Source: Nitrospirota bacterium
Lineage (GTDB): Bacteria; Nitrospirota; Nitrospiria; Nitrospirales; Nitrospiraceae
Assembly (NCBI GenBank): GCA_030684575.1
Contig: JAUXVD010000023.1
Span: 186,001 to 250,000 of the forward strand
Direction of reading: 5' to 3'
DNA: 64,000 bases
Shown one piece after another: positions 29,501 to 59,785 of the stretch; the stretch's first letter is position 1; every line of letters begins with the position of its first letter. A program made the translations under genes and the position numbers. Below the pieces are notes generated by a model. It worked only from the letters and a program-made list of their open reading frames with translations. It ran no database searches and had not been told where the DNA came from.

Positions 29501-29514
29501 GCCCTCCACATTGT

Positions 29515-29662
29515 GACTCCTGGTCAGGGAAGAGGGTGCAAGTCCCTCGCGGTCCCGCCGCTGTAAATGGGGACGAAACCCGTGAATGCCACTGTTCGCT
29601 TCGGCGGATGGGAAGGTACGGGGAGTAGGATGAACCATAAGCCAGAAGACCTCCCAGGATAG
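29515..29662 (+). ncRNA. cobalamin riboswitch 1
   Basis: The canonical elements appear in order: GGGAAGAGGGTGCAAGTCC, CCGCCGCTGTAAA, GATGGGAAGG and the B12 box AAGCCAGAAGACCTCCC at 29639-29655. The ends CTCCTGG and CCAGGA can pair as P1. It lies between a strong promoter and a rho-independent terminator, and it precedes btuF. Adenosylcobalamin binding is expected to switch off the uptake operon. Confidence 0.93.
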
Positions 29663-29716
29663 TTGACCGACGTTCCCTCGTGGGCTGGGGAATTGGCGAG
29701 GATGAGTTGCGGGAGC

Positions 29717-32724: not shown

Positions 32725-32814
32725 AAGACAGCCAGGGTCCTGTCCCCGGCCCGGCTGTGCGTAACCAGGGGGGGCGGTTTATTTTTCATTGAGGAAAGGG
32801 CGTTTTGGAGAAGC

Positions 32815-33046
32815 GACGCGGGTGACGGGGAAGATGGTGCAAATCCATCACGGTGCCGCCACTGTAAGCGGGGAGTAATTCTGCATCGAGCCACTGTCTG
32901 GAGACGGTGAACAGTGATCAGTGAAGAGTAATGGGTGGGAATAGGGATGCCTATTCCGAACCGATCACTCTTCACACATCACTCATCACAGTGAGATGGG
33001 AAGGCGCAGAAACACGACGATCCGCAAGTCAGGAGACCCATTCCGC
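32815..33046 (+). ncRNA. cobalamin riboswitch 2 with a long peripheral insertion
   Basis: Conserved parts are GACGGGGAAGATGGTGCAAATCC, GTGCCGCCACTGTAAGCGGGGA, GCCACTGTCTGG, GATGGGAAGGCGC and the B12 box AAGTCAGGAGACCC at 33026-33039. Between GCCACTG and GGGAAGG sits an extra ~100 nt that folds back on itself: GGAATAGG/CCTATTCC at the tip, AGTGAAGAGT with ACTCTTCAC lower down. It precedes the btuB-like receptor and the whole cobalamin synthesis operon. No strong terminator is seen before btuB, so control may be at translation. Confidence 0.9.
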
Positions 33047-33087
33047 AGTTGATTCGACTCAACCCTTCGAGCACAAGGGAGATCGTT

Positions 33088-45314: not shown

Positions 45315-46232
45315 CACGAGCATGTCCTATTATTTGCCTCGCCAGGATGCATGGTGGATAGACACTGGGATGGGTGAGTAGGAGGAACGCCCTCCGCCAG
45401 CAGCACATCCACCTTGGCTCTCCTGCCTGTGACTTCGGTATTCATTTCCGGACTGTTGATTCTTTCCTGCAATACGATTTCCCATCTATGACCGTGGGGC
45501 CAGCGGCCCCATCTTCTTTGCCTCCTATCCTTGTTTGAACCTTCTTCTGTTTCTGCTTCTCGCGACCTCGACCACTCAGGACGGTGAGGATGCCCTTTGC
45601 TCATCGGTGCCACGCGGTGGCCTCAGGGGTCAAGCCCATGTCGTCTTGTCTGTCCTTCTGATCGTGAGCCATCGAACATCCAGTTGATAGAGGACCATAG
45701 GGAGGGTGCGGCTTCGAGGTATCAGCTCTGCGCGTAGGGTCTGGTGATGGCATGGCCGGAATATCGAGAATGAAATGCCAAATCCATATTGTCTGCTACA
45801 CTTTTTACCATAGACGTGAGGCATGAGCAGAATGATGCTGATTCTCACACGATGGGGAAGGGACCGCTCCATCGAAGAGATGGTGATGCCGAAGTCTGTG
45901 CTTGTGATGTGTGATGGTCATTTTTTGCCAGGACGACATCATTTTGTCACAAGGTGAACAGTTCGGTGCTGGAGTGGCAGGAAGGATGTCTGTGAAAACA
46001 TGTGTGGGCAGATCTCAAAACTACAAGGTAATTCAAGGGGATCTGTCGTGGTGACTGCATAAGCATTCAGTTGAGCACAACCTTTGCACTGTCGCCGCGT
46101 GATGAAGCGTTCGAGTAGCGATGTTTCCCGAAGAATATGTGAGTGCGAACGGTGGCGGCTTTGCACCAAGGGGACAGGATGGCGAGTGTTGGGATGGAAT
46201 CGTATTCCGAGGCATCAAGGAGGAGAACGGGC
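45315..46232. other. 0.9 kb region without a convincing gene
   Basis: Short frames on both strands (up to about 107 residues on the minus strand) lack ribosome sites and family resemblance. It holds a hairpin at 45495-45511 and presumably the promoter of the signalling cluster, but no good -35/-10 pair was found. It separates the cobalamin operon from the chemosensory genes and may contain decayed sequence. Confidence 0.5.
45495..45511 (+). terminator. hairpin downstream of the cobalamin operon
   Basis: TGGGGCC and GGCCCCA form a perfect 7 bp stem with a 3 nt loop, followed by TCTTCTTTG. It lies 180 bp after the cbiP stop and may end the long operon; the tail is only moderately T-rich. Confidence 0.42.
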
Positions 46233-46970
46233 ATGATACAGACACGTTTGAGCTGGCGAATGGTAAGCGGGGTGACTGTGGCGGCCCTGGCACTCTATGC
46301 GAGTCCGGTCATGGCTGGGAATGAAGCGGAAGTGGCAGAGCACTTGATCGAGTTGGTCAAGATCGGCCGTGGCGTCTTGTCGGAGCAGATGAAGAATATC
46401 AATGACCCGGCCAAGGCCGACAAGGGTTTTACCGGCGATTACATGTCCAGCCAGGTCGTGGAACGGTTTAAGAAATCGACCAAACTCGATCTGCGGATTC
46501 CCAACGTCGTGCCGCAAGCGAATCTCTATCTCGCCTTAGTCCAAGCGGAGAAGGAAGTGGTGGACGAAGCCCAGCCGATCATCAACAAGCCAGGGATTTC
46601 TTTCAAGGGATTCATCCCTGCCGTGTTTGCCAGGAGAGTTGGAGAGCAGTTTTACAAGAAGTCCGGTGTCCGTATGAAGCTCACGGGAATCGATTATCGA
46701 AATGCCAATAATAAGCCGGATGACTTTGAGTCGGAAGTCTTGCGGATGTTCAACGATCCGCGTCACCCCAAGGGACAATCCTATGTCCGGAATACGATGG
46801 TGGATGGCAAGCCGGTACTTCGCATGATGGACCCGGAATATGCCGGTCCGACCTGCCTGGGTTGTCATGGTTCACCGAAAGGCGAGCGCGATGTGACCGG
46901 CATGAAGAAAGAGGGATGGAAAGAAGGGGAGTTAGCCGGGGCGATCAGCGTGGTGCTGCCGCTGAAATAG
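46233..46970 (+). CDS. periplasmic heme c protein with DUF3365 (Tll0287-like) domain
   Basis: The ATG at 46233 follows an AGGAGGAGAACGGGC leader. A signal peptide ends near VMAG-N (about residue 28). The mature domain matches DUF3365, a PAS-like heme-binding fold, with GFTGDYMSSQVVERFKKST, FARRVGEQFYKKSGV, a RNANNKPDDFE segment and a single CLGCH heme c site (C208, C211, H212). Related domains are thought to sense redox state or small gases. It lies 73 bp before the CheY-like gene and may deliver the input to the MCP (inference). Confidence 0.85.
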   Translation: MIQTRLSWRMVSGVTVAALALYASPVMAGNEAEVAEHLIELVKIGRGVLSEQMKNINDPAKADKGFTGDYMSSQVVERFKKSTKLDLRIPNVVPQANLYLALVQAEKEVVDEAQPIINKPGISFKGFIPAVFARRVGEQFYKKSGVRMKLTGIDYRNANNKPDDFESEVLRMFNDPRHPKGQSYVRNTMVDGKPVLRMMDPEYAGPTCLGCHGSPKGERDVTGMKKEGWKEGELAGAISVVLPLK

Positions 46971-47043: not shown

Positions 47044-47406
47044 ATGAGCAAGATTGTCGTGGTCGATGATTCGTACGCCGAGCTGCAGTTGATCGAAGGA
47101 TGCCTCAAGGCGGCCAACTACACCGTGGTGTCCTTCCCGAATACCGAGAAGCTCGAAGACAAAGTGGCCAGCGAAAAGCCTGATCTCATCGTGATGGACG
47201 TCGTGATGCCGGGCCGCAACGGGTTCCAAGCCTGTCGAGATTTAAAGGGCGATGAGCGGTGCAAGAATGTCCCGATCATTCTCTGCACCTCGAAAGGCAA
47301 TGAGAGCGATAAATTCTGGGGGCAGCAGCAAGGGGCGAACGGCCACATTGTGAAGCCATTCAAAAACGAAGAGCTGCTTGCGGCCATTAAGCGAGTGATG
47401 GGCTAA
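47044..47406 (+). CDS. stand-alone CheY/PilH-like response regulator
   Basis: The 120-residue receiver has the acidic pocket DD at 8-9, phospho-acceptor D52 in IVMDVVMPGRNGFQ, CTSKGNE with the conserved Ser/Thr position, and K104 in HIVKPFKNEEL. No output domain is present. The insertion KFWGQQQGANG is typical of PilG/PilH-like receivers of Pil-Chp systems. AAAGGAG precedes the ATG. It is followed by cheW after 4 bp. Confidence 0.92.
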   Translation: MSKIVVVDDSYAELQLIEGCLKAANYTVVSFPNTEKLEDKVASEKPDLIVMDVVMPGRNGFQACRDLKGDERCKNVPIILCTSKGNESDKFWGQQQGANGHIVKPFKNEELLAAIKRVMG

Positions 47407-47410
47407 GGCA

Positions 47411-47935
47411 ATGGCATCGATGCCGCATGTCATGACCGTGGATTCCAGCAGGCCAGCGCCTGGCACGTCAAGCTCAGGAGCCGGCCCTGGTCATTCGTCT
47501 GGATCGGCGACCATTCGTGCCGCCATCATCTCCATGGGAGGGGAACTCTTCACGATCGACCTACGAAGCGTACGCGAAGTGTTTGTCGTGGAATCCATCA
47601 CACCGGTTCCCGGGATGCCATCCGGCTTGGTGGGAGTCACGAACCTGCGCGGAACGGTCATTCCGTTGCTCGACCTGCGGATGATGTTTTCGCTCAACGC
47701 AGAAGCCACACTGCAATATGCCGTCGTCGTGAAACATGGGAATTGGCAAGTGGGTGTATTGGTCGATACGGTGCCAGAAATCCGCACCCTCTCAAAGGAC
47801 CAATTCATGCCGGCCCCAACCGGCACGGGGGAGGCCGAATTTCCCTTTGTGTCGACGGTAGTCAAACTCGAGGACCGGTTACGGGGCGTGTTAGAAACGG
47901 CAGCGGTGCTCTCGCATTTCGAGAGCGCGGGATAA
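47411..47935 (+). CDS. cheW: CheW-type coupling protein
   Basis: CheW links the receptor to the CheA kinase. The 174-residue protein has a Ser/Gly-rich N-terminal extension of about 33 residues and a full CheW domain: AAIISMGGELFTIDLRSVREVF, ITPVPGMPSGLVGVTNLRGTVIPLLDLR, GVLVDTVPEIRTL and FVSTVVKLEDRLRGVLE. ATG 47411 is the first of three in-frame ATGs. It precedes the MCP gene after an 80 bp gap containing a strong ribosome site. Confidence 0.93.
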   Translation: MASMPHVMTVDSSRPAPGTSSSGAGPGHSSGSATIRAAIISMGGELFTIDLRSVREVFVVESITPVPGMPSGLVGVTNLRGTVIPLLDLRMMFSLNAEATLQYAVVVKHGNWQVGVLVDTVPEIRTLSKDQFMPAPTGTGEAEFPFVSTVVKLEDRLRGVLETAAVLSHFESAG

Positions 47936-48015: not shown

Positions 48016-49890
48016 ATGGTGAGGCCTACTGTACTGCAACGGTTTGAAGACTTAAAAACACAAACGAAACTCCTGACGGCCTTCGGCGTCGTCAGCGTCA
48101 TCATCGTGATCATGAGCTCGTTGGGTGTGTGGACCAATAAACGCATCAGCCAACAGACTGACGCAATCTACGTCGATTACACCGTTCCACTGATCGACTT
48201 CAATACGATGTTGTTCAATCTCAATAAGTATCATGAGACGCTCCAGGACCTGGCTCGAGCGCCTCGCGCCACGGATTTTAAAGTCGACGTCGCCAAGATC
48301 GGGCCGTATCGACAACAGATCGATCAGTTGATTGCCAAATACGAGGCGACAAGTTTACGTACCTCGAGTTCCGGTCGTGATGAAGCCAAGGACCTTGTTC
48401 AGCTCAAAGGCGCGATTGCCACATTCTTTCAACAGTCGGAGGCTGGGGTCGCCGCCATTGCTGAAAGTTTTGAGTCGAAGTCATTGTCGCCTGGACAGGC
48501 ACAACAGATGAGAGAATTGGGACAGCTTGCCTTGACGGTGAGTATTGCACCGGCCTTCGATGAAGTCAGCAGCCGCCACTCAGAACAGATTAAGACGATG
48601 CAAGAGATTGCCAAGGATCTTAGTAATGAGGCGAAGTCGCTTGCGGCAAATGCCACCCTCGCGTTGGTGATCGGCGGAGCGCTCGCGGTGCTGTTGGGAT
48701 TATCGATCGGTTACTGGGTGGCGCATAAACTGGCGCTGGGTATTGGACAGGTTGCGCACGTCGCACAGTTGGCGGCAAGTGGTAACTACCAAGCTCGCGC
48801 CAAGATCACGTCAAAGGACGAACTCGGACAGATGGCCGCGTCGTTCAATGCCATGTTGGATCGTATTACGGCCCTCGTGACGTCGGAGTCCGAGCGCGAC
48901 GACATGCAAAAACGGTTGATGAGCTTTCTGGTCTTGGTCTCGGACGTCGGTAAAGGAGATTTGACGAAACGCGGTGAGGTGACGGCAGATATGTTCGGCA
49001 ACCTTGCGGACGGATTCAACCTCATGGTGACCCGGTTCGGACAGTTGTTGAAGCAGGTTCGAGAGGCTGCCGAACGCGTCAACAAATCAGCCGGGACCCT
49101 TCGGGAAAGCGCAGGACAGATGGCTGGAACCGCGAAGCATCAGGCGGACGAATCCACCAAGACGTTAGGCGCGGTCGAACAATTGGCCACTTCCATGCGT
49201 CAGGTTGCAGAAACCGCCGGTGCCTCTTCGGAATCGGCGAAGCAAGTGTTGCAAGCGACAGAACGTGGACGAGTGGCCGTGGAAGAAACCGTGCAGGACA
49301 TGCACAGCATTCGTTCAGCCGTGCAACGTATGTCGAAGCAGGTCAAAGCGCTGGGCGACCGGTCCTTGGAAATTTCACAGATCGTGTCGACGATTCGGGA
49401 TATTGCCAATCAGACGAACTTGCTCGCGTTGAACGCCGCCATCGAGGCGGCCGGCGCCGGTGAAGCCGGAGCTCGATTCGCCGTCGTTGCCGATCAGGTC
49501 AGAAAACTGGCCGAAAGTTCGACGCAAGCGACGCGCGAAATCGCCGATCTTGTGAAGGTGATTCAGACGGAAACGCAAGACGCGGTGGTCGCGATGGAGC
49601 AGGAAACACAGGCGGTGGAAGCCGGGTCGGCCTCTGCGCTACGTACCGGTGAAGTGTTCAACGAAATTTCAGGAATTGCCCAACGTTCGTCGGAGTTGGC
49701 ACAGACCATCGCCAGCGCGGCGGTCACCCAGACCGCGTCGACGGATCAGGTGGGTCGCTCGATTAAGGACTTCTCCGGCGGTGCCGCGGCGACGCAAAAA
49801 GTGACGGACTCTGCGCGCGTGACCGTCGAAGATATGGCGAAGCTCGCCGAAGGGCTGACGTCTTCCGTCGCCCAGTTTAAATTGGTCTAG
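48016..49890 (+). CDS. methyl-accepting chemotaxis protein, PilJ-like
   Basis: The 624-residue receptor has TM1 (about 20-40), a periplasmic four-helix-bundle-type sensor (about 45-210), TM2 (about 215-238), a HAMP domain and a second HAMP-like unit (residues about 300-345, [19 protein letters not shown]). The cytoplasmic signalling tip reads [40 protein letters not shown]. The tandem HAMP recalls PilJ of Pil-Chp systems. No CheR-tethering pentapeptide ends the protein. GGAGGAGG lies 8 nt before the ATG. Confidence 0.93.
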
Positions 49891-49940: not shown

Positions 49941-52900
49941 ATGAGCTCCGAACTTGACCGAGACGACCTCGTCGATATATTCGTCGCTGAAGCGACGGAA
50001 GCGATGGACATCCTCACCAAGGCCTTCCATCCGTCCGATGGGACGACGCCGACTCCCGCACAACTGCAAGAACAGTATGTGTGGGCACATAAAATTCGTG
50101 GGGCATCAGGACTCTACGGATACGAGGGGTTAGCCCTGATGGGGGCCTTGATGGAATCCACCTTGGAAGAGGCGCCATCGATAGAGGCCTCACTCTGGCC
50201 GAAGGCCTTGGAGATCTTACGCGGGATGGTCACTTCGTTCGAGTCTCAATTGAAAGTTGTTGCGCAAGGCGAGCCTGAAGACCCATCCGTGGGTGCGCGA
50301 TGGAAAGCCGAAGTGGCTGGATTGTTTCCCGTTGTGCCTCAAACCGTTCATTCTGATGAATCGATTGTACTCACAGCAGACTATCTCGTGCCGACTCTCG
50401 ATATCGAGGTTCTGTCGTATTTTTCCCCGGAAGCGGAGGAGTATCTAGAGACCATCGAATCGCTCCTACATCGACTGCGGCATGATTCTCAGGATAGAGA
50501 AACGATTCAGACGCTCTACCGCACGGCCCACACCTTGAAAGGGTCTGCTCACACGATCGGGTTCAAGGTGGTCGGGGACGTGGCTCATCCGGTCGAAGAC
50601 TGCATGATCGCGGTGCGTGAAGGCCAGGTGGCCATGTCGGCTACGTTGATCGGGGCGATCAGTCGGGCGGTCGAGGTGACTCGGTTGCTCATGCGCCGAG
50701 ACGACGACAGTATCGTGCAATTACAGCATGCTGTGCCCGAAGTCATTCAAGCGCTTGAACGGATCCGCAAGGGGGAAGGTATCGCGGTAGCGGCTCCAGC
50801 GGTTGCTCCGATCGTCTCAGTGGTGCAGGTTGCGGCGGCCGTCGTCGACTGTCCCGAGCCATCGGCCATTCCAGAAGCGGAACCGTCACCCGGCTCGAAC
50901 CCATTGACGGATGAGTATCTGCTGCCGCTTCTGGATGCTGAAGTGCTGTCGTACTTTGCTCCTGAAGCCCAGGAGTATCTGGAGTCACTTGAAGCGCAAT
51001 TACTTCGCCTTGAAAAAGAACAGCACAATCCTGAAGTCATCAATCAGCTCTTTCGGACCGCGCATACGCTGAAAGGGTCTGCCTATACGGTTGGATTCCA
51101 GTCGATTGGCGATCTGACGCATTACGTCGAAGATTTTATGGGCTCGGTTCGGGAGGGGCGTGTCAAGATTCTCCCAGGGCATACGGATGTATTGTTACGA
51201 TCGGTGGATGTGGTTCGCTTGTTGATGCGTAGAGATTCTTCATCCCTCGACATGCTGCGCCAGCGATTCGCGGTCGCCTTGCAAGGACTCAAGCAGCTCG
51301 ATCAGCCTATGGCGGATCAGGCCGTTGAGGCACGGCCTACCGTTCAGTCAGTCGCGCCGCCGGTGGAGCAAGAGGCACAGGATCAGCAAGACGCCGAACC
51401 TGCCAAGACGGTGGACGGGAAAGCGGCAGAAGATCGCGAAGTCATCCGTGTGAGCCGCGATCGGTTGGAGCGACTATTGAATCTGGTCGGTGAGCTCGTG
51501 ATCGGCCGAGGACGGCTCGAGCAACGACTGCATATGCTGGAGAATCTTTCTCAGCAAGTGTTAGCGTGCAAAGGACGTTTGGTCGAATCGGTTCGTTCGT
51601 TTGAGGAGAAACATACCTTCACGCTTCCGGCTGCCTCCTCAAGCCCGGCGTCCGTCCCCTCTCAGGGTATGGCCGGTCTCAGCGATTTTGGCAGTCTTGA
51701 GTTCGACAAGTACGACGATTTCAATATTTTGGCCCGTCGAATCAGTGAGGTCACGGCAGATATTACCGAATCGATGACGCAGCTGAGCGGATCGATTCGT
51801 CGTTCGCATGAAGACATGAGTCACCTCGCACAACTCACCCTCGGGATGCGTGATGAAATTGCCCGGGCCCGTATGGTGCCGGTCGGCACCCCGTTCACCC
51901 GATTCCGTCGCGCCACACGGGAGATGGCACGGGCGACAGGGAAAGAGGTGACATTAGTCACTTCCGGTGAACATACCGAAGTGGACACGGGCGTCGTGGA
52001 GCGGCTGGTCGATCCGTTGGTGCACCTCGTGCGCAACGCGGTCTATCACGGAATCGAGCCTGCGGCGGTTCGCATGTCGAAGGGCAAGCCTGCGGCCGGG
52101 ACGATCTATCTCCATGCGGCGCATCGCGGGAATGCCGTATTGATCGAAGTGGAAGACGATGGAGCGGGGCTTGATGTTGAAAAGATCAGGGCCAAGGCGG
52201 TGGAGCGAGGGTTGATTCGCCCTGAAGTGGCCCGCGTGTTACCGGAATCAGAAGTGGTCAAGTTTATTTTCATGCCGGGATTCTCGACGGCTGATCAGAT
52301 CGGTGATCAGGCTGGGCGAGGGGTCGGCATGGATGTGGTGAAGCGCGTCATCGAAAGCATGAACGGCCACATCGATGTCGAATCCATTCGAGGTGTGGGG
52401 ACGAAGTTCACGTTGAGTCTCCCGCTGACCCTGCTGATTGCCACGGCGCTCATGGTGAAGGCCGGGAGCGAACGGTATGCGATTCCGTTGCCGTCGGTCC
52501 GCGAAGTCACCATGTTAACGGCCAACTCGCATCAACGGATGGGTGAGCGATCCATCTTGCATGTCGGTGATGAGGCGATCGAAGTACAGCCGCTCCAACA
52601 GTTGCTCACTCGGAATCGTGTGCCGGTAGAAATCGGGAGACCGGTGGTCATCGTGAGAACGGCCGCTGGTATGATCGGGTTGCTGGTTGATGAATTACTC
52701 GGTCGTCAGGAAATCGTCATTAAACCATTAGGATCGTTTAAGTCGTTGGATCGTTCCAACTTTGGTGGCGCAACCATCGATCCGGAAGGTCGCGTGGTCC
52801 TCGTGTTAGACCCGGCTCGGCTGTTGGCGCGAGAAACGCCGGTCGCAGCTGGAGCGGAATTGTCATTTGACGCGGCATCCTCAGCAGCGGCCTTGATCCC

Positions 52901-53315
52901 CTACGTGGAGGCGCCAGAGCCGAAGGCATTGGAACCGTTGATTCTTTTAATCGACGACTCCTTGAGCATTCGGAAGTTCGTCGGTCGAATGCTGGAGTCC
53001 GCCGGGTATAAAGTCGATACCGCAGTGGATGGAGAAGAGGGTCTCCGTAAAGCATCGGCGCATAACTACCGGCTAATCCTCACCGATCTTGAGATGCCGA
53101 AGCTGAATGGCTATGAAGTGATCCAGGGGTTACGCAGCCGGGCGCAGACCCAGGAGACGCCGATTATCGTGATGACGACCAGAGCCGGTGATAAACATCG
53201 GCAAATGGCGCTGAATATCGGGGCGAGCTCGTATATTCCCAAGCCGGTAGAAGAGCGGGCATTGATTCAGGAAATTGAGCGCTGGATCGGTAAAGAGGCC
53301 ACCGTGCGTCAATAG
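49941..53315 (+). CDS. cheA: hybrid CheA/ChpA-like histidine kinase with three HPt domains and a receiver
   Basis: At 1124 residues this is far longer than E. coli CheA. HPt1 (about 1-110) has AHKIRGASGLYG with His50. HPt2 and HPt3 have AHTLKGSAHTIG (His197) and AHTLKGSAYTVG (His375). They are followed by the dimerisation helix pair (about 500), and the ATPase domain with HLVRNAVYHGIEP, DDGAGLD and GRGVGMDVV. A CheW-like domain (about 830-970) and a C-terminal receiver (about 990-1115, TDLEMPKLNGYE) complete it. This layout resembles ChpA and other type IV pilus or alternative-function systems. No P2 docking domain is obvious. The next CheW-like gene follows after 65 bp. Confidence 0.94.
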   Translation: MSSELDRDDLVDIFVAEATEAMDILTKAFHPSDGTTPTPAQLQEQYVWAHKIRGASGLYGYEGLALMGALMESTLEEAPSIEASLWPKALEILRGMVTSFESQLKVVAQGEPEDPSVGARWKAEVAGLFPVVPQTVHSDESIVLTADYLVPTLDIEVLSYFSPEAEEYLETIESLLHRLRHDSQDRETIQTLYRTAHTLKGSAHTIGFKVVGDVAHPVEDCMIAVREGQVAMSATLIGAISRAVEVTRLLMRRDDDSIVQLQHAVPEVIQALERIRKGEGIAVAAPAVAPIVSVVQVAAAVVDCPEPSAIPEAEPSPGSNPLTDEYLLPLLDAEVLSYFAPEAQEYLESLEAQLLRLEKEQHNPEVINQLFRTAHTLKGSAYTVGFQSIGDLTHYVEDFMGSVREGRVKILPGHTDVLLRSVDVVRLLMRRDSSSLDMLRQRFAVALQGLKQLDQPMADQAVEARPTVQSVAPPVEQEAQDQQDAEPAKTVDGKAAEDREVIRVSRDRLERLLNLVGELVIGRGRLEQRLHMLENLSQQVLACKGRLVESVRSFEEKHTFTLPAASSSPASVPSQGMAGLSDFGSLEFDKYDDFNILARRISEVTADITESMTQLSGSIRRSHEDMSHLAQLTLGMRDEIARARMVPVGTPFTRFRRATREMARATGKEVTLVTSGEHTEVDTGVVERLVDPLVHLVRNAVYHGIEPAAVRMSKGKPAAGTIYLHAAHRGNAVLIEVEDDGAGLDVEKIRAKAVERGLIRPEVARVLPESEVVKFIFMPGFSTADQIGDQAGRGVGMDVVKRVIESMNGHIDVESIRGVGTKFTLSLPLTLLIATALMVKAGSERYAIPLPSVREVTMLTANSHQRMGERSILHVGDEAIEVQPLQQLLTRNRVPVEIGRPVVIVRTAAGMIGLLVDELLGRQEIVIKPLGSFKSLDRSNFGGATIDPEGRVVLVLDPARLLARETPVAAGAELSFDAASSAAALIPYVEAPEPKALEPLILLIDDSLSIRKFVGRMLESAGYKVDTAVDGEEGLRKASAHNYRLILTDLEMPKLNGYEVIQGLRSRAQTQETPIIVMTTRAGDKHRQMALNIGASSYIPKPVEERALIQEIERWIGKEATVRQ

Positions 53316-53380: not shown

Positions 53381-53899
53381 ATGAGTTTACGGGGTCATCT
53401 TAAATCGACGAATGTGCTTGTAGAGACGGCCAGCTTCTTGGTCGTTCGCCTGGGGCGCACGTATCTGGCATTGCCTGCCGATGGAGTTCGCGGCGTGCTG
53501 ACGCCAGAAGAGATCGGTCACGAACAAGCCGTCACGGCGACGGGAGCTATCTATCAATCGGTTGACCTCGCGCAGTTACTTTCTGTAATCGTCGACCTAT
53601 CCGGTCACGAGATGCGGACGGTGTTGTATTCGAACGGCCATTCGCATGGCGCGATTCGCGTTGAGCAGGTGGTCGGCTTGACGGACGTGGAACGCAAGAA
53701 CTGTCTTCCGTTGCCGCCGCAATTTCAATGCGATGAACGTCGGTGGTTTGGGGGAATGATGTTATACGAGGACCTTCTGGTGTTGATCGTGAATCCTGCC
53801 TGGATGCTGGGCGAGTTGGCCGAGGTGGTCTCTGTGGGCGCAAAGGAGACCTCGCAGCTGGTCACCGCTGGTCCACTCACAGTTGGTGGGTCGTGCTGA
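53381..53899 (+). CDS. second CheW-like domain protein
   Basis: The 172-residue protein is a divergent CheW fold: SFLVVRLGRTYLALPADGVRGVLTPEE, YQSVDLAQLLSV, a strand GAIRVEQVVGL and LPPQFQCDERRWFGGMMLYEDLLVLIVNPAWML. The canonical NLRG turn is not evident. It may compete with or replace the first CheW at the array, or bind an additional partner. It overlaps the third CheW-like gene by 7 bp. Confidence 0.8.
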   Translation: MSLRGHLKSTNVLVETASFLVVRLGRTYLALPADGVRGVLTPEEIGHEQAVTATGAIYQSVDLAQLLSVIVDLSGHEMRTVLYSNGHSHGAIRVEQVVGLTDVERKNCLPLPPQFQCDERRWFGGMMLYEDLLVLIVNPAWMLGELAEVVSVGAKETSQLVTAGPLTVGGSC

Positions 53900-54342
53900 G
53901 GGCGGCTCGAGGACAGCAGCAGACTCAGGCCACAAAACGGTCGTGGAATGTGGTGGTCTTCTCCATTGGCGGGATGAAGTTGGCCGCACGGACGGAAGAT
54001 GTGGGGGGCGTGTCACCCTGGACTGACAGTATTCCTGTGCCGAGTCAGACACCGTTCGTGCAGGCGATGCTGAAACGGGACCATCAGGTGATGCCGGTGT
54101 ATGAATTGGCGAACAGGCTGAGCCGCACCGTGGAGGGAGATCCCTTGCTGTGCCTGGTCGCTCGTCACGTCGATGGTCCGATGGCGATCTGTATTGATGC
54201 GGCGGTACCTTCTCTCGAAATGGTAGATGCTGCAGCGATTCGACCCACTATCAGCGGTGATCTTGAAACGCTCGGGTCAGTCACGATTGGTGGGGACGAC
54301 GTGACGATCGTGGCCTTGCAACGACTGGGACGGTTAGGGTAG
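53893..54342 (+). CDS. third, short CheW-like protein
   Basis: The GTG at 53893 (overlapping the preceding stop) gives 149 residues; the exact start is uncertain. WNVVVFSIGGMKLAARTEDVGGV, SQTPFVQAML, HQVMPVYELANRLS, LCLVARHVDGPMAICIDAAVPSLE and LGSVTIGGDDVTIVALQRL follow the CheW strand order but lack the classic motifs. Two tandem atypical CheW-like genes after CheA suggest a specialised coupling layer in this array. Confidence 0.68.
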   Translation: MLRAARGQQQTQATKRSWNVVVFSIGGMKLAARTEDVGGVSPWTDSIPVPSQTPFVQAMLKRDHQVMPVYELANRLSRTVEGDPLLCLVARHVDGPMAICIDAAVPSLEMVDAAAIRPTISGDLETLGSVTIGGDDVTIVALQRLGRLG

Positions 54343-54384: not shown

Positions 54385-55779
54385 ATGCCAAACGTGTTGG
54401 TTGCCGATGACAGTATTGCCGTTCGGAAAGTCGCGGAGCGGTTGCTGACCGAGGCTGGATTTGGAGTCACGCTTGCTGCGAATGGTGAAGAGGCGTTGGC
54501 CTATTTGGCCAAAGAGAAGCCTGACATGGTCGTCACCGACGTGATCATGCCGGATAAGAGCGGGTACGAAGTCTGCGCCTTTGTGCGTGCGCAGAGCGGA
54601 TTGGCAAACACCCCGGTGCTCTTGATCTCCGGTATCGTCAACGAGGAGGTGACCAGGCAAGCTGAATCCTGCCACGCAGACGGAGTGCTGAAAAAACCGT
54701 TCCAGGGTACCTCTCTCAAGGATCGCGTGCTTGAGTTATTGGCCAAGAGACAAGCGCCTGTTGCTCATGCTCAGAAGCCTGTTGAGCCGGTGCCAGAGAC
54801 GGTTGAACCGATTCAGACGGCGCGTGTCAGTGACGAACAATTGGAAACATATCGGCAGACAGCTGCGCGGTTGAAACCGCTCGAGGAAGAACTTCAGGTT
54901 GAACGAGATCGATCGGCACAACTGACTCAACGCGTAACGCAGCTTGAAGGACAGTCTGGCAACATGAAGGAACTCGAGTCGATGCTGGCCCGAGAGCGCG
55001 AGCAGGCGGCTCAGTTGAAGGAAAAACTTGCAGAAGCCGAGCAGGCGACTGTTCGGGTGCAGGCGCTCGAATCTGAATTAAAAGGTGAGCGAGAGCAGGC
55101 GGCCGAGGCCAAGAAACAGGGAGTCGTGGTTGAGAGTCTGACGGCCCATGTGCAGGAACTGGAAGAGGCGCTTCAGAAAGAACGCGAGGACCGGGCACAA
55201 GAGGCCTCAAGTCTCGCCGAGGTGCAGAAACGTGCAAGTCGTGTCCAGGAGATGGAGGCGACGTTGCATGCCGAGCGCCAGGCAGCCACACAACTGGTTC
55301 AACAGATGACAGCGATGGAAAAGACCGTAGCCCTGTCTCAAGAGCTGGCGCTGCAATTGGCACAAGAACAGGAACGTACGAGCGACGTGACGCGCCGGGC
55401 TGATGAGGCTGAACGCCAGGCAGTTGCTCAACTGGCGCAGGAGCAAGCGCAAGTGCAGGAACTTTCTCGGCGTGTGGCTGAGCAAGAACAGGTTGTCGCA
55501 CGGATGGGCCTGTTGGAACAAACATTGGTTGCCGAACAGGAAAAGAATCACGACCTTGCTGCACGCCTTTCCGAGTCCCAACGTGCAGCAGAACGAGTCC
55601 AGGAGTTTGAATCGTTGCTTCAGACCGAGCGAGAACGGAATAGCCTTTTAGCCAAGCGTGCATCCGACACTGAGCAGGCCGCCGAGCAGGCGACCAAACG
55701 GTTTGAAGAAATGGCGACCAAGCTTAGCGAGATCGCAGGGTTGGCCTCTCAGCTGGGGAGTGGGAAACGGCGGTCCTGA
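54385..55779 (+). CDS. receiver domain fused to a long coiled coil
   Basis: Residues 1-120 form a receiver with DD at 8-9, phospho-acceptor D52 in VTDVIMPDKSGYEV and the conserved Lys in KKPFQG. After a Pro-rich linker (about 125-150), about 300 residues are a nearly continuous coiled coil dominated by Glu, Gln, Arg, Ala and Leu, with recurring blocks of the type ELESxLxxEREQAAQLK. No output enzyme is present. The protein could bridge or time-control the position of an array, like polar or cell-division coiled-coil proteins, under phosphorylation control (inference). Confidence 0.85.
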   Translation: MPNVLVADDSIAVRKVAERLLTEAGFGVTLAANGEEALAYLAKEKPDMVVTDVIMPDKSGYEVCAFVRAQSGLANTPVLLISGIVNEEVTRQAESCHADGVLKKPFQGTSLKDRVLELLAKRQAPVAHAQKPVEPVPETVEPIQTARVSDEQLETYRQTAARLKPLEEELQVERDRSAQLTQRVTQLEGQSGNMKELESMLAREREQAAQLKEKLAEAEQATVRVQALESELKGEREQAAEAKKQGVVVESLTAHVQELEEALQKEREDRAQEASSLAEVQKRASRVQEMEATLHAERQAATQLVQQMTAMEKTVALSQELALQLAQEQERTSDVTRRADEAERQAVAQLAQEQAQVQELSRRVAEQEQVVARMGLLEQTLVAEQEKNHDLAARLSESQRAAERVQEFESLLQTERERNSLLAKRASDTEQAAEQATKRFEEMATKLSEIAGLASQLGSGKRRS

Positions 55780-55828
55780 ATCGATAGGCCTCGCGTAAGA
55801 ACTGTCACAGTCGTGAAGGACTGAGGTT

Positions 55829-56776
55829 ATGGCTGCTGAGACGACAGATGATTTCCAGAAAGAGCTGATCGATCTTTTTGTGCAGGAGGCACAAGAATGG
55901 CTTCAGAACATCCACGTCGCCCTTGATGAATTGCAACAGGGGCCAGCGCCTGAACGGCATGCCAAACTCATCGGGATCATTTCAGCAGGAGTGACGAATC
56001 TCGGAGGATCCGCGGCCACAATCAATCTCCCGGATGTCGAGCAGGCCAGTTTCAACGCCATTCCCTTCATCGACGCTATCCGGGATCCAAACAAATCGCT
56101 TTCCGTTCAGGACTTTCTCTCCCTCTGCAAGCAGTTAGGACAGATTCATACGGCCTTGACCCAGGCCACGGGCATCTCCTTTGAAGATGACGGGAGTGGC
56201 GCCGCGGCTGAGGCCGCCTACACGAGCCTCTCATCTGCTGATTTCCTGCAAGCCTTACAGGCATTAGAGGAGAGACAGCCCTCGGTGGCCATGTCCGGAC
56301 GGAACGTGATTCGGGCCATGATCGAGCAGATAGAAGGGCAGGTTCAGGCCGGTGTTGGGCAAGTGGATGCCACGGTGATCCAGGGCTATCTGACGCGCGT
56401 GTCCGACGCGGAAGAGTTGTTTCTGCAAGCGATTGGCACGCAGGTGCCAGCGATTTCTGAGAAGCTACATGTTCTCGGGCAAGACGTACAGGAGCCCACT
56501 TCGCGTATGGCAGCCCTCGACGGGTCACTCCAGGACGTGGCACGGCTTCGAATCGAAGCGCAACAGGTGAATGCGGGGGTGGCCATGCTGTTCTTTACAG
56601 GCTTGCACAGTTTATTGACAGTGATGGCGCAGCGTCGAGTGCATCTGGCTGCCGCACGGGTGGAAACTGTGAAGGCACGGCTTCACAGCATGGGTACAGC
56701 GATCCGCGAATGGGCGGAGCATGGGCGCGCTCAGCGTGCCGCAATCAATCAGTTGCTTCCCTCCAGCCAGTCATGA
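55829..56776 (+). CDS. HPt-like signalling adaptor without phospho-histidine (paralogue A)
   Basis: The 315-residue protein has an N-terminal helical HPt-like unit: ELIDLFVQEAQEWLQNIHVALDELQQ, then GIISAGVTNLGGSAATIN where HPt domains have HTLKGSA; Thr stands at the histidine position. A second helical region ends FFTGLHSLLTVMAQRRVHLAAARVETVKARLHSM...RAAINQLLP. The same two regions occur in the C-terminal half of the HD-GYP protein at 57698, so the two are paralogues. No known family name fits the C-terminal region. It probably docks on CheA or receivers without carrying phosphate. Confidence 0.7.
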   Translation: MAAETTDDFQKELIDLFVQEAQEWLQNIHVALDELQQGPAPERHAKLIGIISAGVTNLGGSAATINLPDVEQASFNAIPFIDAIRDPNKSLSVQDFLSLCKQLGQIHTALTQATGISFEDDGSGAAAEAAYTSLSSADFLQALQALEERQPSVAMSGRNVIRAMIEQIEGQVQAGVGQVDATVIQGYLTRVSDAEELFLQAIGTQVPAISEKLHVLGQDVQEPTSRMAALDGSLQDVARLRIEAQQVNAGVAMLFFTGLHSLLTVMAQRRVHLAAARVETVKARLHSMGTAIREWAEHGRAQRAAINQLLPSSQS

Positions 56777-56853
56777 TCATGTGCCAGAGCCCCGCACAGA
56801 GTTTCGTTGGATGCTCACGGAAGTCAAAATAGACGAGCGAAGATGATGGCCCA

Positions 56854-57660
56854 ATGACGACAGACGTGGATTATACGAAGTATTGGGGGCTCCAAACCCT
56901 TCCCTTCGACAATGTGCCGGACCCGCGATTTTATGTGCCCTGCACCCAGCATGATACGGCCTATCAGTGGTTGAGTTATGGGATTCAGACCCGCAAGGGC
57001 ATGCTCCTGCTCACCGGCGACATCGGGTGCGGAAAAACGTTGCTCAGCCGCCGACTGATCAGCGGGCTGTCGTCTGCACAGTATGATATCGCGCTCGTTG
57101 CCAATCCCGCATTGTCTCCATCAGAATTATTGGATGAGGTGTTGTCGCAGTTTGGACTCGATCCCGTGCGATCCAAAGCAGGACGATTACAGCAGCTCAA
57201 TGAACGACTGCAGTCGAATGCCCAACGTGGAATCAGCTCGGTCTTGATCGTGGATGAGGCGCAAGCGATTGAACGCGTCAAAGGATTTGAGGAGCTGCGA
57301 TTACTGACGAACTTCCAACTCAATGACCGATTCTTGTTGACCGTGGTGTTGATCGGGCAGCCTGAATTGCGTCATCGTGTGGCGAACATTCCACAACTGA
57401 ACCAGCGAATTGCGGTTCGTGCCCACTTGGGCCCCTTCACGGCAGAGGAGACGGCGTCATATATGAAGGCTCGCATGGGTATCGCCACTCATCGGACAGA
57501 TGTCTTTACGAAGGAGGCCGTGGCAGCCATTTATGAGCAGACGCAAGGGATTGGGCGGCTGATCAATGCCCTCTGCGATCAGTGTCTCTTTGCCGGATCC
57601 CTCGAAAACATGGTAGAGATCGATGTCAGACTTGTTCAGCGGGTCGGTCAATGCCGATGA
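56854..57660 (+). CDS. ExeA/GspA-like AAA ATPase
   Basis: The 268-residue protein starts YWGLQTLPFDNVPDPRFYV, the typical ExeA beginning, then LLLTGDIGCGKTLLSRRL (Walker A), VLIVDEAQ (Walker B), LLTVVLIGQPELRHRV (sensor) and an arginine-rich C-terminal lid. ExeA-type ATPases help assemble secretins or regulate transposition. The C-terminal peptidoglycan-binding domain of ExeA is absent. Its place between two HPt-like paralogues suggests it remodels or positions the signalling complex (inference). Confidence 0.87.
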   Translation: MTTDVDYTKYWGLQTLPFDNVPDPRFYVPCTQHDTAYQWLSYGIQTRKGMLLLTGDIGCGKTLLSRRLISGLSSAQYDIALVANPALSPSELLDEVLSQFGLDPVRSKAGRLQQLNERLQSNAQRGISSVLIVDEAQAIERVKGFEELRLLTNFQLNDRFLLTVVLIGQPELRHRVANIPQLNQRIAVRAHLGPFTAEETASYMKARMGIATHRTDVFTKEAVAAIYEQTQGIGRLINALCDQCLFAGSLENMVEIDVRLVQRVGQCR

Positions 57661-57697
57661 TCTATTGTTGAATGTGTAAGAAGAACGACCGAAGACC

Positions 57698-59785
57698 ATG
57701 AAGGAATACAACGTGCCTGATTTGTATCAGATTGCACAGGAGCACCTGACGAGCGTGGCCTTGGCCGTCCAGCGGCAGGACGCACTCGACTTGGATCCCG
57801 TATCTACGCTGGCGACAGGTATTGTGGAGGCACTCAAGAGAAGTGATCAATTACTCGTGCAGGCGATGAGTGGGCCCGCCGGTTCTCCGCTGATTACAAA
57901 TCTCGTGAATGTCGGCATTGTCGCGACGAAGGTCGGTGCCGGATTGGGTTACCACGGGAAAGAGTTGGAGCGGTTGACGTTCGCAGCGCTCCTGCATGAC
58001 ATCGGTCTGTTTGCCGTGCCGCAGTCGGTCATCAGTAAATCCAGCCGGTTGACCCAAGATGAACGGATGTTGATCGAACAGCATCCGGATCTCGGCTATG
58101 AGGCGATTCGTAAGGCCGGTCCACAATACGAGTGGCTGGCACAAGTGGTGCGTCAAGCCCATGAGCGGTGGAACGGGCAGGGATACCCCAACAAGCTGAA
58201 GGGGCGGCAGATCAGCGAGTTTGCCCAAATCATCGGGGTGGTGGATGTCTTCGATGCCCTGGTGAGCCCACGGGGCTATCGCCGTCGATATTTTCCGCAT
58301 GAAGCGGTCCGAGAATTGATGGTGGCGGAACGAACGGCATTCCCGCGCGAGGTGCTGAAGGCCTTAGTCGAACAACTGTCTGCCTATCCGCTCGGCACCT
58401 CGGTGAGGTTGACCACCGGAGAGGTGGGGACCGTGAAGCACATCAATACGAACTACCCGCTTCGTCCGATCGTCTGGATCGAGGATGATCCAGTCCTCGG
58501 CCAGGAATCCCGGCAGCTTGATTTGAGCCTGACCCCGCTCGTGTCCATCGTTCAAACGCTTGAACCTCCTGACGTCGCGCGTTTGTCCTTTTCGACGATT
58601 GAGAAAAGTCCACAGCCATCTGCGATCGTTCCCGCGGCATCCGATCAGTTCACGTCGTTGTTGGAGGGGTTGGATGCGCTGGCCAGCGCGATTCAAGGCG
58701 CGGTCGAGGCGAAGACTCCTGGACGAGAACAGGAGTCGACGGCGTTGTTGGACGAGCGGAGATGGACTGTTGATTCTTCTGCTCAGGATCTGACGGATCC
58801 CAGCTTTGAGAAGGAAGTGATCGGGCTCTTTGCCCTCGAAGCCCATGAATGGCTAGCTCAAATTCAAGCGGCGTTGAGACAACTGGGTGAAGGGACGCAC
58901 GAAACGATGCGTCCGAAGCTCTACGGGATTCTCTTGCACGGAATTACGAATCTTGCCAAGTCCGCGTCAACGGTGCAATTCCATGCGATTGCGCAAATGG
59001 CCTCGAACCTGCTTCCCATTCTCCACGATGTGGGACGTCAGGAACCGCGTGCGATGACGGCAGCGCTGCTGTCGCTTCAAGAGGGATTGGATCGGATCAA
59101 TGTGGCGGTGCGTCGATTAGCAGGAGATCAAGCGGACGATTGCTTTGAGCAGGAGGGCGATTCTGTTGGACCGGTGGAAGACACGCAGGAGATATCTCCT
59201 GCGCTGGCAATGGATGATTCTGCGGCCTCTTTACAACTGTCCCCTGTCGCTACCGGACCTTCCAGCCCACCCCTTCTTCATGCACTACGGGATCTGCAAC
59301 AGGCTCGTGCCCGGTCGATGCAGCCAGCGCGCGATGTTCTGGAGGCCGTAATTCATCGAGCCGAGCAGAAATCCGATCATCTCGATGTGACTACCGTTGG
59401 ACAGATTTTGACGGAGCTCGATCGACTCGACGATGAGTTTCTTCACGAAGTCTGTCGCCTGGTCCCGATCATGAGTCGTACGCTTGAAGAATTACGAGCG
59501 CGAGGGCAGATGGATTTTGTGGCGGCGTCTCAGCTCGATCCAATTATCCAGCAGATCGAGGTCCTCCACGACATGGCCAACCATGTACAAGCGACGATGA
59601 TCACGATGTTTTTGCAAGGGCTGCGCTCCTTTCTCATGGTGGCGGTCTATCGGAAGACCTCGACCTTGCCGCAACGACTGGAGACGGTCCAGGGTCGAAT
59701 TCATGCGTTGATTCCCATGGCGGAGCAATGGGTCAATATCGGGCGGATCGAACGATCGGCCATCGGTAATATTTTGCCAGTCTAG
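57698..59785 (+). CDS. HD-GYP-like domain fused to the HPt-like module (paralogue B)
   Basis: Residues about 55-260 form an HD-GYP-like domain: FAALLHDIGLFAVPQ (H100, D101), IEQHPDLGYEAI, RQAHERWNGQGYPNKLKG. The usual HDIGK lysine is Leu, and the first metal histidine position appears to be Asn in LVNVGIV, so phosphodiesterase activity is doubtful. Residues about 365-695 repeat the paralogue A module: VIGLFALEAHEWLAQIQAALRQLGEG, GITNLAKSAST with no phospho-His, and FLQGLRSFLMVAVYRKTSTLP...RLETVQGRIHAL...RSAIGNILPV. It probably senses c-di-GMP or array state. It is the last gene of the cluster. Confidence 0.8.
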   Translation: MKEYNVPDLYQIAQEHLTSVALAVQRQDALDLDPVSTLATGIVEALKRSDQLLVQAMSGPAGSPLITNLVNVGIVATKVGAGLGYHGKELERLTFAALLHDIGLFAVPQSVISKSSRLTQDERMLIEQHPDLGYEAIRKAGPQYEWLAQVVRQAHERWNGQGYPNKLKGRQISEFAQIIGVVDVFDALVSPRGYRRRYFPHEAVRELMVAERTAFPREVLKALVEQLSAYPLGTSVRLTTGEVGTVKHINTNYPLRPIVWIEDDPVLGQESRQLDLSLTPLVSIVQTLEPPDVARLSFSTIEKSPQPSAIVPAASDQFTSLLEGLDALASAIQGAVEAKTPGREQESTALLDERRWTVDSSAQDLTDPSFEKEVIGLFALEAHEWLAQIQAALRQLGEGTHETMRPKLYGILLHGITNLAKSASTVQFHAIAQMASNLLPILHDVGRQEPRAMTAALLSLQEGLDRINVAVRRLAGDQADDCFEQEGDSVGPVEDTQEISPALAMDDSAASLQLSPVATGPSSPPLLHALRDLQQARARSMQPARDVLEAVIHRAEQKSDHLDVTTVGQILTELDRLDDEFLHEVCRLVPIMSRTLEELRARGQMDFVAASQLDPIIQQIEVLHDMANHVQATMITMFLQGLRSFLMVAVYRKTSTLPQRLETVQGRIHALIPMAEQWVNIGRIERSAIGNILPV

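Follow-up and report, generated by a model that had tools for sequence, protein, structure and literature searches.

A conserved pseudo-Hpt protein and its fusion to a degenerate HD-GYP domain at the end of a Nitrospiraceae chemosensory operon

INTRODUCTION

What does a histidine phosphotransfer (Hpt) domain do once its phospho-accepting histidine is gone? The question is raised by two genes in a stretch of 64,000 nucleotides from a Nitrospirota bacterium of the family Nitrospiraceae (GCA_030684575.1, contig JAUXVD010000023.1, positions 186,001 to 250,000). We refer to this whole stretch as ‘the window’ and use its own numbering; the genome it belongs to comprises 3.79 Mb in 23 contigs. One of the genes encodes a stand-alone protein, here called HptA. 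The other encodes a fusion protein, ‘the fusion’, in which an HD-GYP half precedes a second copy of the HptA sequence. An earlier note, made from the sequence of the window alone, proposed that the two represent a duplicated adaptor module that docks on CheA or on receivers without transferring phosphate, in combination with a receiver–coiled-coil (REC-coiled-coil) protein and an ATPase of the ExeA type. We describe here what these proteins are, where they occur and what they might do.

RESULTS

Paralogy and descent from Hpt

HptA and the C-terminal half of the fusion are full-length paralogues. They share 93 of 334 positions (28% identity) in one collinear alignment with an E value of 7e-34, which rules out a chance resemblance. 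The motif pairs by which the earlier note had linked the two proteins are all present where it placed them, and all lie within this single alignment. Both proteins have Thr at the place of the phospho-histidine, as had been observed.

The N-terminal domain of HptA is a homologue of Hpt, by common descent. We rest this conclusion on sequence profiles and take the fold only as agreement, because four-helix bundles match many unrelated chains. In profile–profile comparison, residues 1-122 of HptA score 73%, 96% and 97% with the Hpt domains of the CheA encoded by the same operon, over 95-98 columns (E 3e-9 for Hpt2 and 4e-10 for Hpt3); control profiles for chemoreceptor, receiver, coiled-coil and dimerisation domains score no more than 1.2%. 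When the family profile is compared with all PDB sequences, the P1 domain of Thermotoga CheA ranks first and second, with Thr56 of HptA aligned on its phospho-histidine. A hidden Markov model (HMM) of the HptA family also picks up the CheA Hpts of divergent operons. The case for an Hpt-like domain is strong at the level of the family; HptA taken alone scores 15.2 bits, below the curated Pfam Hpt cut-off of 24.6. At E values up to 1, 37 of 48 family members match Pfam Hpt (best E 8.7e-6).

The predicted structures contain the four-helix N-domain that the earlier note expected, in both proteins. The AlphaFold model of HptA has a mean predicted local distance difference test score (pLDDT) of 82.6, and its N-domain superposes on CheA P1 (1tqg) with Z 13.0, at 2.5 Å over 105 residues. 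Residues 369-476 of the fusion model superpose on the same structure with Z 15.9, at 2.0 Å over 104 residues. A Foldseek search with the whole HptA model returned nothing below E 0.001; its top matches were generic bundles, namely designed repeat proteins and BRIL-fused receptors.

Loss of the histidine and conservation around it

None of the 95 relatives in our family alignment, of which 74 are stand-alone proteins and 21 are fused, has the phospho-accepting histidine of helix B. Thr occupies the site in 78, Ala in 10, Met in three, Ser in two, and Ile and Asn in one each. No other column holds a universally conserved histidine that might take its place; the commonest, His29, is present in 65 of the 95 and nearly missing from the fused clade. 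The canonical Lys at +3 is lost in the family, too, with Ala or Gly there in the fused copies. Position +1 is Asn (Asn57 in HptA) in 64 of the 74 stand-alone proteins, Ser in eight, and Asn in all 21 fused copies; position +5 (Ser61) is Ser in 93 of the 95. At the former active site, the helix NLGGSAAT is among the most conserved stretches of the N-domain.

CheA and the REC-coiled-coil protein, by contrast, keep their own key residues. The phospho-histidines of the three CheA Hpts are kept wherever the position is present in homologues (43/43, 37/37 and 43/43), and the receiver Asp residues of the REC-coiled-coil protein are likewise unchanged in every aligned relative that covers them. Since these residues are kept, and since the rest of the helix is conserved in the pseudo-Hpts, we infer from the alignments that histidine loss is specific to the pseudo-Hpts and that the surface of the NLGGSAAT helix is under selection. 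All fused copies group together in the tree (support 0.999), consistent with the fusion having arisen once among the sequences sampled. Two divergent operons with a shorter CheA (L104, 10905-11930; L110, 6788-7885) encode HptA proteins without even the N-L-G-G-S-A motif (AEIGACA and AGIRESA, respectively).

A second bundle in the C-terminal region

The C-terminal ‘module’ shared by the two proteins, which the earlier note recognized by its motifs, is itself a four-helix bundle that resembles CheA P1. It spans residues ~181-309 in the AlphaFold model of HptA and superposes on CheA P1 structures (1i5n, Z 10.8, 2.0 Å, 106 residues; 3kyj, Z 10.3), and also on FliS-type bundles. Profiles of the C- and N-domains match at 32-48% over 96 collinear columns; none of 60 block shuffles scores as high, yet a reversed control reaches 14%. 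Against the CheA Hpt profiles the C-domain stays below 2%. Gly258 and Arg284 are invariant in it, and Trp295 nearly so. It is possible that the C-bundle shares descent with Hpt, in which case HptA would be a tandem pseudo-Hpt.

The HD-GYP half of the fusion

The fusion to an HD-GYP domain, as first described, is real in the window gene, but in many relatives the same gene consists of the HD-GYP part alone. Beyond what had been noted, this domain lacks several catalytic residues. The closest solved fold to its first 228 residues is that of Bd1817 (Z 23.1, 2.9 Å, 213 residues), with the cyclic di-GMP (c-di-GMP) phosphodiesterase PmGH (4mcw) at Z 16.9. Relative to PmGH, the HD motif, H221, D222, H250, H277, D305, D308 and the GYP motif are kept, whereas H189, K225 and H276 correspond to N68, L104 and A154 of the fusion. 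The full set of an active HD-GYP domain, consisting of the metal ligands H189, H221, D222, H250, H276, H277 and D305 together with K225, the Lys of HDIGK, is therefore incomplete. The same substitutions run through the family: H189 becomes Asn (a gap in one alignment), H276 becomes Ala or Val, and K225 becomes Leu or Ile. Among the 60 relatives whose aligned sequence spans these sites, 59 have a replacement at each of the three. In PmGH, Ala at any one of these positions abolishes or nearly abolishes activity (PMC4159591). Six of the seven other HD-GYP proteins of the genome keep each of the two lost His ligands; the loss of K225 is less telling, because several of those proteins lack it as well. 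The HD-GYP domain of the fusion is, then, probably catalytically inactive. The genome encodes another HD-GYP protein (L002; G000:C15:42613-43455), 45% identical to the HD-GYP half of the fusion, which has Asn and Glu as the equivalents of H189 and H276, and retains the Asp of HHExxD.

The operon and its distribution

A complete CheA chemosensory operon, which starts at ~46143 in the window (Table 1) and which the earlier note had not recognized as such, has the pseudo-Hpt genes at its 3' end. The phospho-sites of its CheA are His50, His197 and His375, and a Pfam domain search detected no P2 domain in this protein. Several CheA Hpts, no P2, a C-terminal receiver and PilG-, PilI- and PilJ-like neighbors, judged by domain composition and gene order, point to a system of the type IV pilus (Tfp) class, or Pil-Chp-like; the CheA arrangement matches that described for Tfp-class CheA proteins (PMC10782961). 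Scans for promoters and terminators gave signal no higher than in shuffled sequence.

Table 1. Features of the chemosensory operon and the genes that follow it (window coordinates)
Feature	Position	Strand	Basis and remarks
Tll0287-like (DUF3365) protein, CxxCH haem motif	46143..46970	+	PF11845 E 7.6e-26; synteny
Single receiver-domain protein, CheY/PilG-like	47044..47406	+	PF00072; synteny
CheW 1	47411..47935	+	PF01584 E 5.5e-30
Chemoreceptor, 4HB-HAMP-MCPsignal	48016..49890	+	PF00015, PF12729, PF00672
CheA	49941..53315	+	Pfam: three Hpt, dimerisation, ATPase, CheW and C-terminal receiver domains
CheW 2	53381..53899	+	PF01584 E 7.5e-8
CheW 3 (open reading frame as listed)	53743..54342	+	PF01584 E 3.8e-7, residues 70-192
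REC-coiled-coil protein	54385..55779	+	PF00072 E 6.3e-23; receiver Asp8, Asp9, Asp52 intact
HptA, stand-alone pseudo-Hpt	55829..56776	+	N-bundle residues 8-116; C-bundle ~181-309; Thr56 at His site
AAA_22 ATPase, accessory	56854..57660	+	PF13401 E 8.2e-25; nearest TIGR03015 (XrtA/PEP-CTERM ATPase)
HD-GYP fusion, whole gene	57698..59785	+	HD-GYP half and pseudo-Hpt half
Degenerate HD-GYP half of fusion, residues 1-309	57698..58624	+	PF13487 (HD_5) E 4.6e-30
Pseudo-Hpt half of fusion, residues 361-695	58778..59785	+	Thr at His site, Lys at +4 Gly position

Among relatives the gene order is fixed: [Tll0287-like]-REC-CheW-MCP-CheA-CheW-CheW-REC-coiled-coil-HptA, where MCP denotes the chemoreceptor (methyl-accepting chemotaxis protein). 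The REC-coiled-coil gene lies directly upstream of HptA in 42/42, 30/30 and 14/14 loci of three sets, which overlap in species and include only loci whose upstream contig was available. The ATPase and HD-GYP genes are additions to this core, found downstream in many loci but not all. Of the gene partnerships put forward at the start, the constant one with the REC-coiled-coil protein is confirmed, and that with the ATPase is not. In a sizeable share of the loci the ATPase gene is no direct neighbor, which rules it out as a core member. The label of ExeA type is doubtful, the nearest curated family being TIGR03015, at 217.6 bits, below the cut-off of 324.5.

The HptA family profile matches 101 of 110 sampled Nitrospiraceae genomes and three from another family of the order. 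The nine sampled Nitrospiraceae genomes without HptA yielded no strong match to the operon's CheA, and so HptA goes with this CheA. One 2.0 Mb Nitrospiraceae genome (G102) has a stop-interrupted HptA remnant (G102:C1:115145-115494; L093, L096) and no such CheA. Three other families of the phylum gave weak profile matches, all of them short, over the N-domain and in frames of 640-780 amino acids; these are probably genuine Hpts in CheA-like proteins. Beyond the Nitrospirota, one contig scan from a single-sequence seed returned only records labeled Nitrospira, Nitrospiraceae or Nitrospirota, the closest named relatives being Nitrospira assemblies; more distant relatives elsewhere are possible. 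A search of plasmids for HptA gave no match.

Several features stand apart from the pseudo-Hpts. The CheW domain of the third CheW begins near residue 70 of the listed frame, and so the true start is probably downstream. The Tll0287-like protein, whose translation contains CLGCH, is the first of the conserved cluster; it heads the operon in many relatives and is absent from some loci. This protein may sense redox state or a gas through haem and feed the chemoreceptor. Two cobalamin riboswitches (29504-29672 and 32778-33058) lie upstream of an apparent cobalamin biosynthesis gene cluster that extends to ~45300.

DISCUSSION

Proposed role of the pseudo-Hpts

The idea of a duplicated adaptor that lacks the phospho-histidine and is tied to a CheA/receiver system has held up well: Hpt homology, universal histidine loss, the constant position within the CheA operon and the monophyly of the fused copies all agree with it. 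From Hpt descent, loss of the acceptor and a fixed genetic partnership, we infer binding to receivers; docking without phosphotransfer is plausible. We favor, by a modest degree of confidence, the following reading. HptA and the C-terminal half of the fusion arose from Hpt domains of the CheA P1 type and shed the phospho-accepting histidine, and would have retained the Hpt scaffold for docking on receivers, most likely that of the REC-coiled-coil protein, that of the single-REC protein or the one at the C-terminus of CheA. The neighboring REC-coiled-coil protein would be the likeliest partner. A docked pseudo-Hpt might act as a decoy that competes with phosphate transfer from the genuine Hpts of CheA, or it might gate that transfer; alternatively, it might read out the phosphorylation state of the receiver. 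The fusion would relay that state to its probably dead HD-GYP domain, which might bind a nucleotide or a protein partner, and the output would be surface or pilus behavior under the Pil-Chp-like system. That the system governs pilus or surface behavior is probable, because its CheA is of the Pil-Chp type and the genome has PilB/PilT-type ATPases.

Several points weigh against this reading. In 20 of the 21 fused copies, Lys or Arg takes the place of the canonical Gly at +4. In true Hpts this Gly eases the approach of the receiver, and the substitution could hinder the canonical docking mode. Fold scores for four-helix bundles are weak by themselves. The inactivity of the HD-GYP domain is predicted from residues only. 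And the link to pili comes from the domain composition of the operon and from PilB/PilT-type ATPases elsewhere in the genome, and not from linkage.

A more elaborate version, which we consider possible but well short of probable, is that tandem pseudo-Hpts read receiver phosphorylation by binding, and that the pseudo-HD-GYP fusion couples this to c-di-GMP sensing. If true, the operon would contain a binding-only branch of a two-component pathway, with an output module built from inactivated signaling domains.

The main rival explanation casts HptA as a scaffold or array protein, no longer in contact with receiver active sites. It would bind CheA, CheW or the coiled coil of the REC-coiled-coil protein, and so anchor the REC-coiled-coil protein and the HD-GYP protein at the cell pole or in the chemosensory array. 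The invariable place of HptA beside a receiver protein with a long coiled coil fits such a role, as do the loss of the histidine throughout, the further loss of the +4 Gly in the fused clade and the presence of a second bundle with strongly conserved Gly, Arg and Trp residues. The NLGGSAAT helix at the old active site is still highly conserved, however, which argues that this surface is in use, and we regard the scaffold role as doubtful.

Less likely again is that HptA is a phosphatase or stabilizer of receivers, in which Asn57 at +1 and Ser61 at +5 replace phosphotransfer. Both residues are well conserved in stand-alone and fused proteins alike, and CheZ, CheC and CheX are absent from the Pfam matches of the operon's proteins. 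But in Hpt complexes the receiver Asp is faced by another position than that of Asn57; canonical Hpts are also polar (Thr) at +1, so that Asn57 may be structural; and the C-terminal receiver of CheA offers an alternative phosphate sink.

It is very improbable that HptA is a threonine phosphotransfer (TPt-type) domain, with Thr56 taking the phosphate in place of histidine. Thr predominates at the site, and Pseudomonas aeruginosa ChpA, which has His-less Hpts of its own, has a receiver that has been discussed as a possible source of phosphate (PMC10782961). The His-less domains of ChpA were not seen to be phosphorylated in vitro (PMC10782961), though, and Ala, Met, Ile, Ser or Asn stands in place of Thr in 17 of the 95 members here, which rules out a conserved Thr-phosphotransfer site as a rule of the family.

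That the N-domain is no Hpt at all, but a generic four-helix bundle similar by chance, is scarcely credible: the single-sequence Pfam match of HptA is under the cut-off, and in fold comparison designed bundles and receptor fusions do as well as CheA P1, but the profile evidence is specific and collinear, and the family HMM retrieves CheA Hpts from divergent operons.

What the locus offers, then, is a small, universally His-less protein whose gene, in Nitrospira and related bacteria, always has the same receiver gene as its neighbor. Because HptA is a separate protein, the binding of a pseudo-Hpt to a receiver, and the dependence of this binding on phosphorylation, can be tested with purified proteins. 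The pseudo-HD-GYP domain in the same pathway hints at binding of c-di-GMP rather than turnover.

Comparison with known systems

In the literature we consulted, which mostly excluded subscription papers, we found nothing on this Nitrospira signaling operon or on an Hpt/HD-GYP fusion, nor any account of His-less Hpts that form a family of their own in a bacterial chemosensory operon. The parts of the system do have precedents. The pseudo-Hpts resemble CheA P1 and Hpt domains (PF01627; Thermotoga 1tqg, 2ld6) in their four-helix bundle, their collinear profile and the L-x-x-S-A motif of helix B. They differ in lacking the phospho-histidine (0/95) and the +3 Lys, and in being free-standing or fused to HD-GYP, outside the kinase.

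The HD-GYP half finds its best fold match in Bd1817 of Bdellovibrio (3tm8-3tmd), an unconventional HD-GYP protein described as enzymatically inactive (PMC4159591). Identity between the two is only 18%, and Bd1817 has no Hpt fusion. With active PmGH, the operon family has in common the HD motif, H250, H277, D305, D308 and GYP, but not H189, H276 or K225.

In Arabidopsis, AHP6 is a His-less pseudo-phosphotransfer protein proposed to compete with true Hpts in a phosphorelay (PMC4076795). Like HptA it is free-standing and of the phosphotransfer type, but it is eukaryotic, acts in a plant hormone pathway and belongs to neither a fusion nor a chemosensory operon; the parallel is an analogy only. Another precedent is ChpA of P. 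aeruginosa, a Tfp-class CheA in which some Hpt domains lack the histidine and have not been seen to be phosphorylated (PMC10782961). There, too, the chemosensory system that contains the His-less Hpts relies on a CheA with several Hpts and a receiver at its C-terminus. In ChpA, however, the His-less domains lie inside CheA, whereas here one has a gene of its own and another is part of a fusion, an arrangement conserved within a bacterial family. Hpts without histidine were thus already known from within ChpA and from AHP6; what is new is a separate, fixed His-less protein, together with its fusion to a pseudo-HD-GYP domain.

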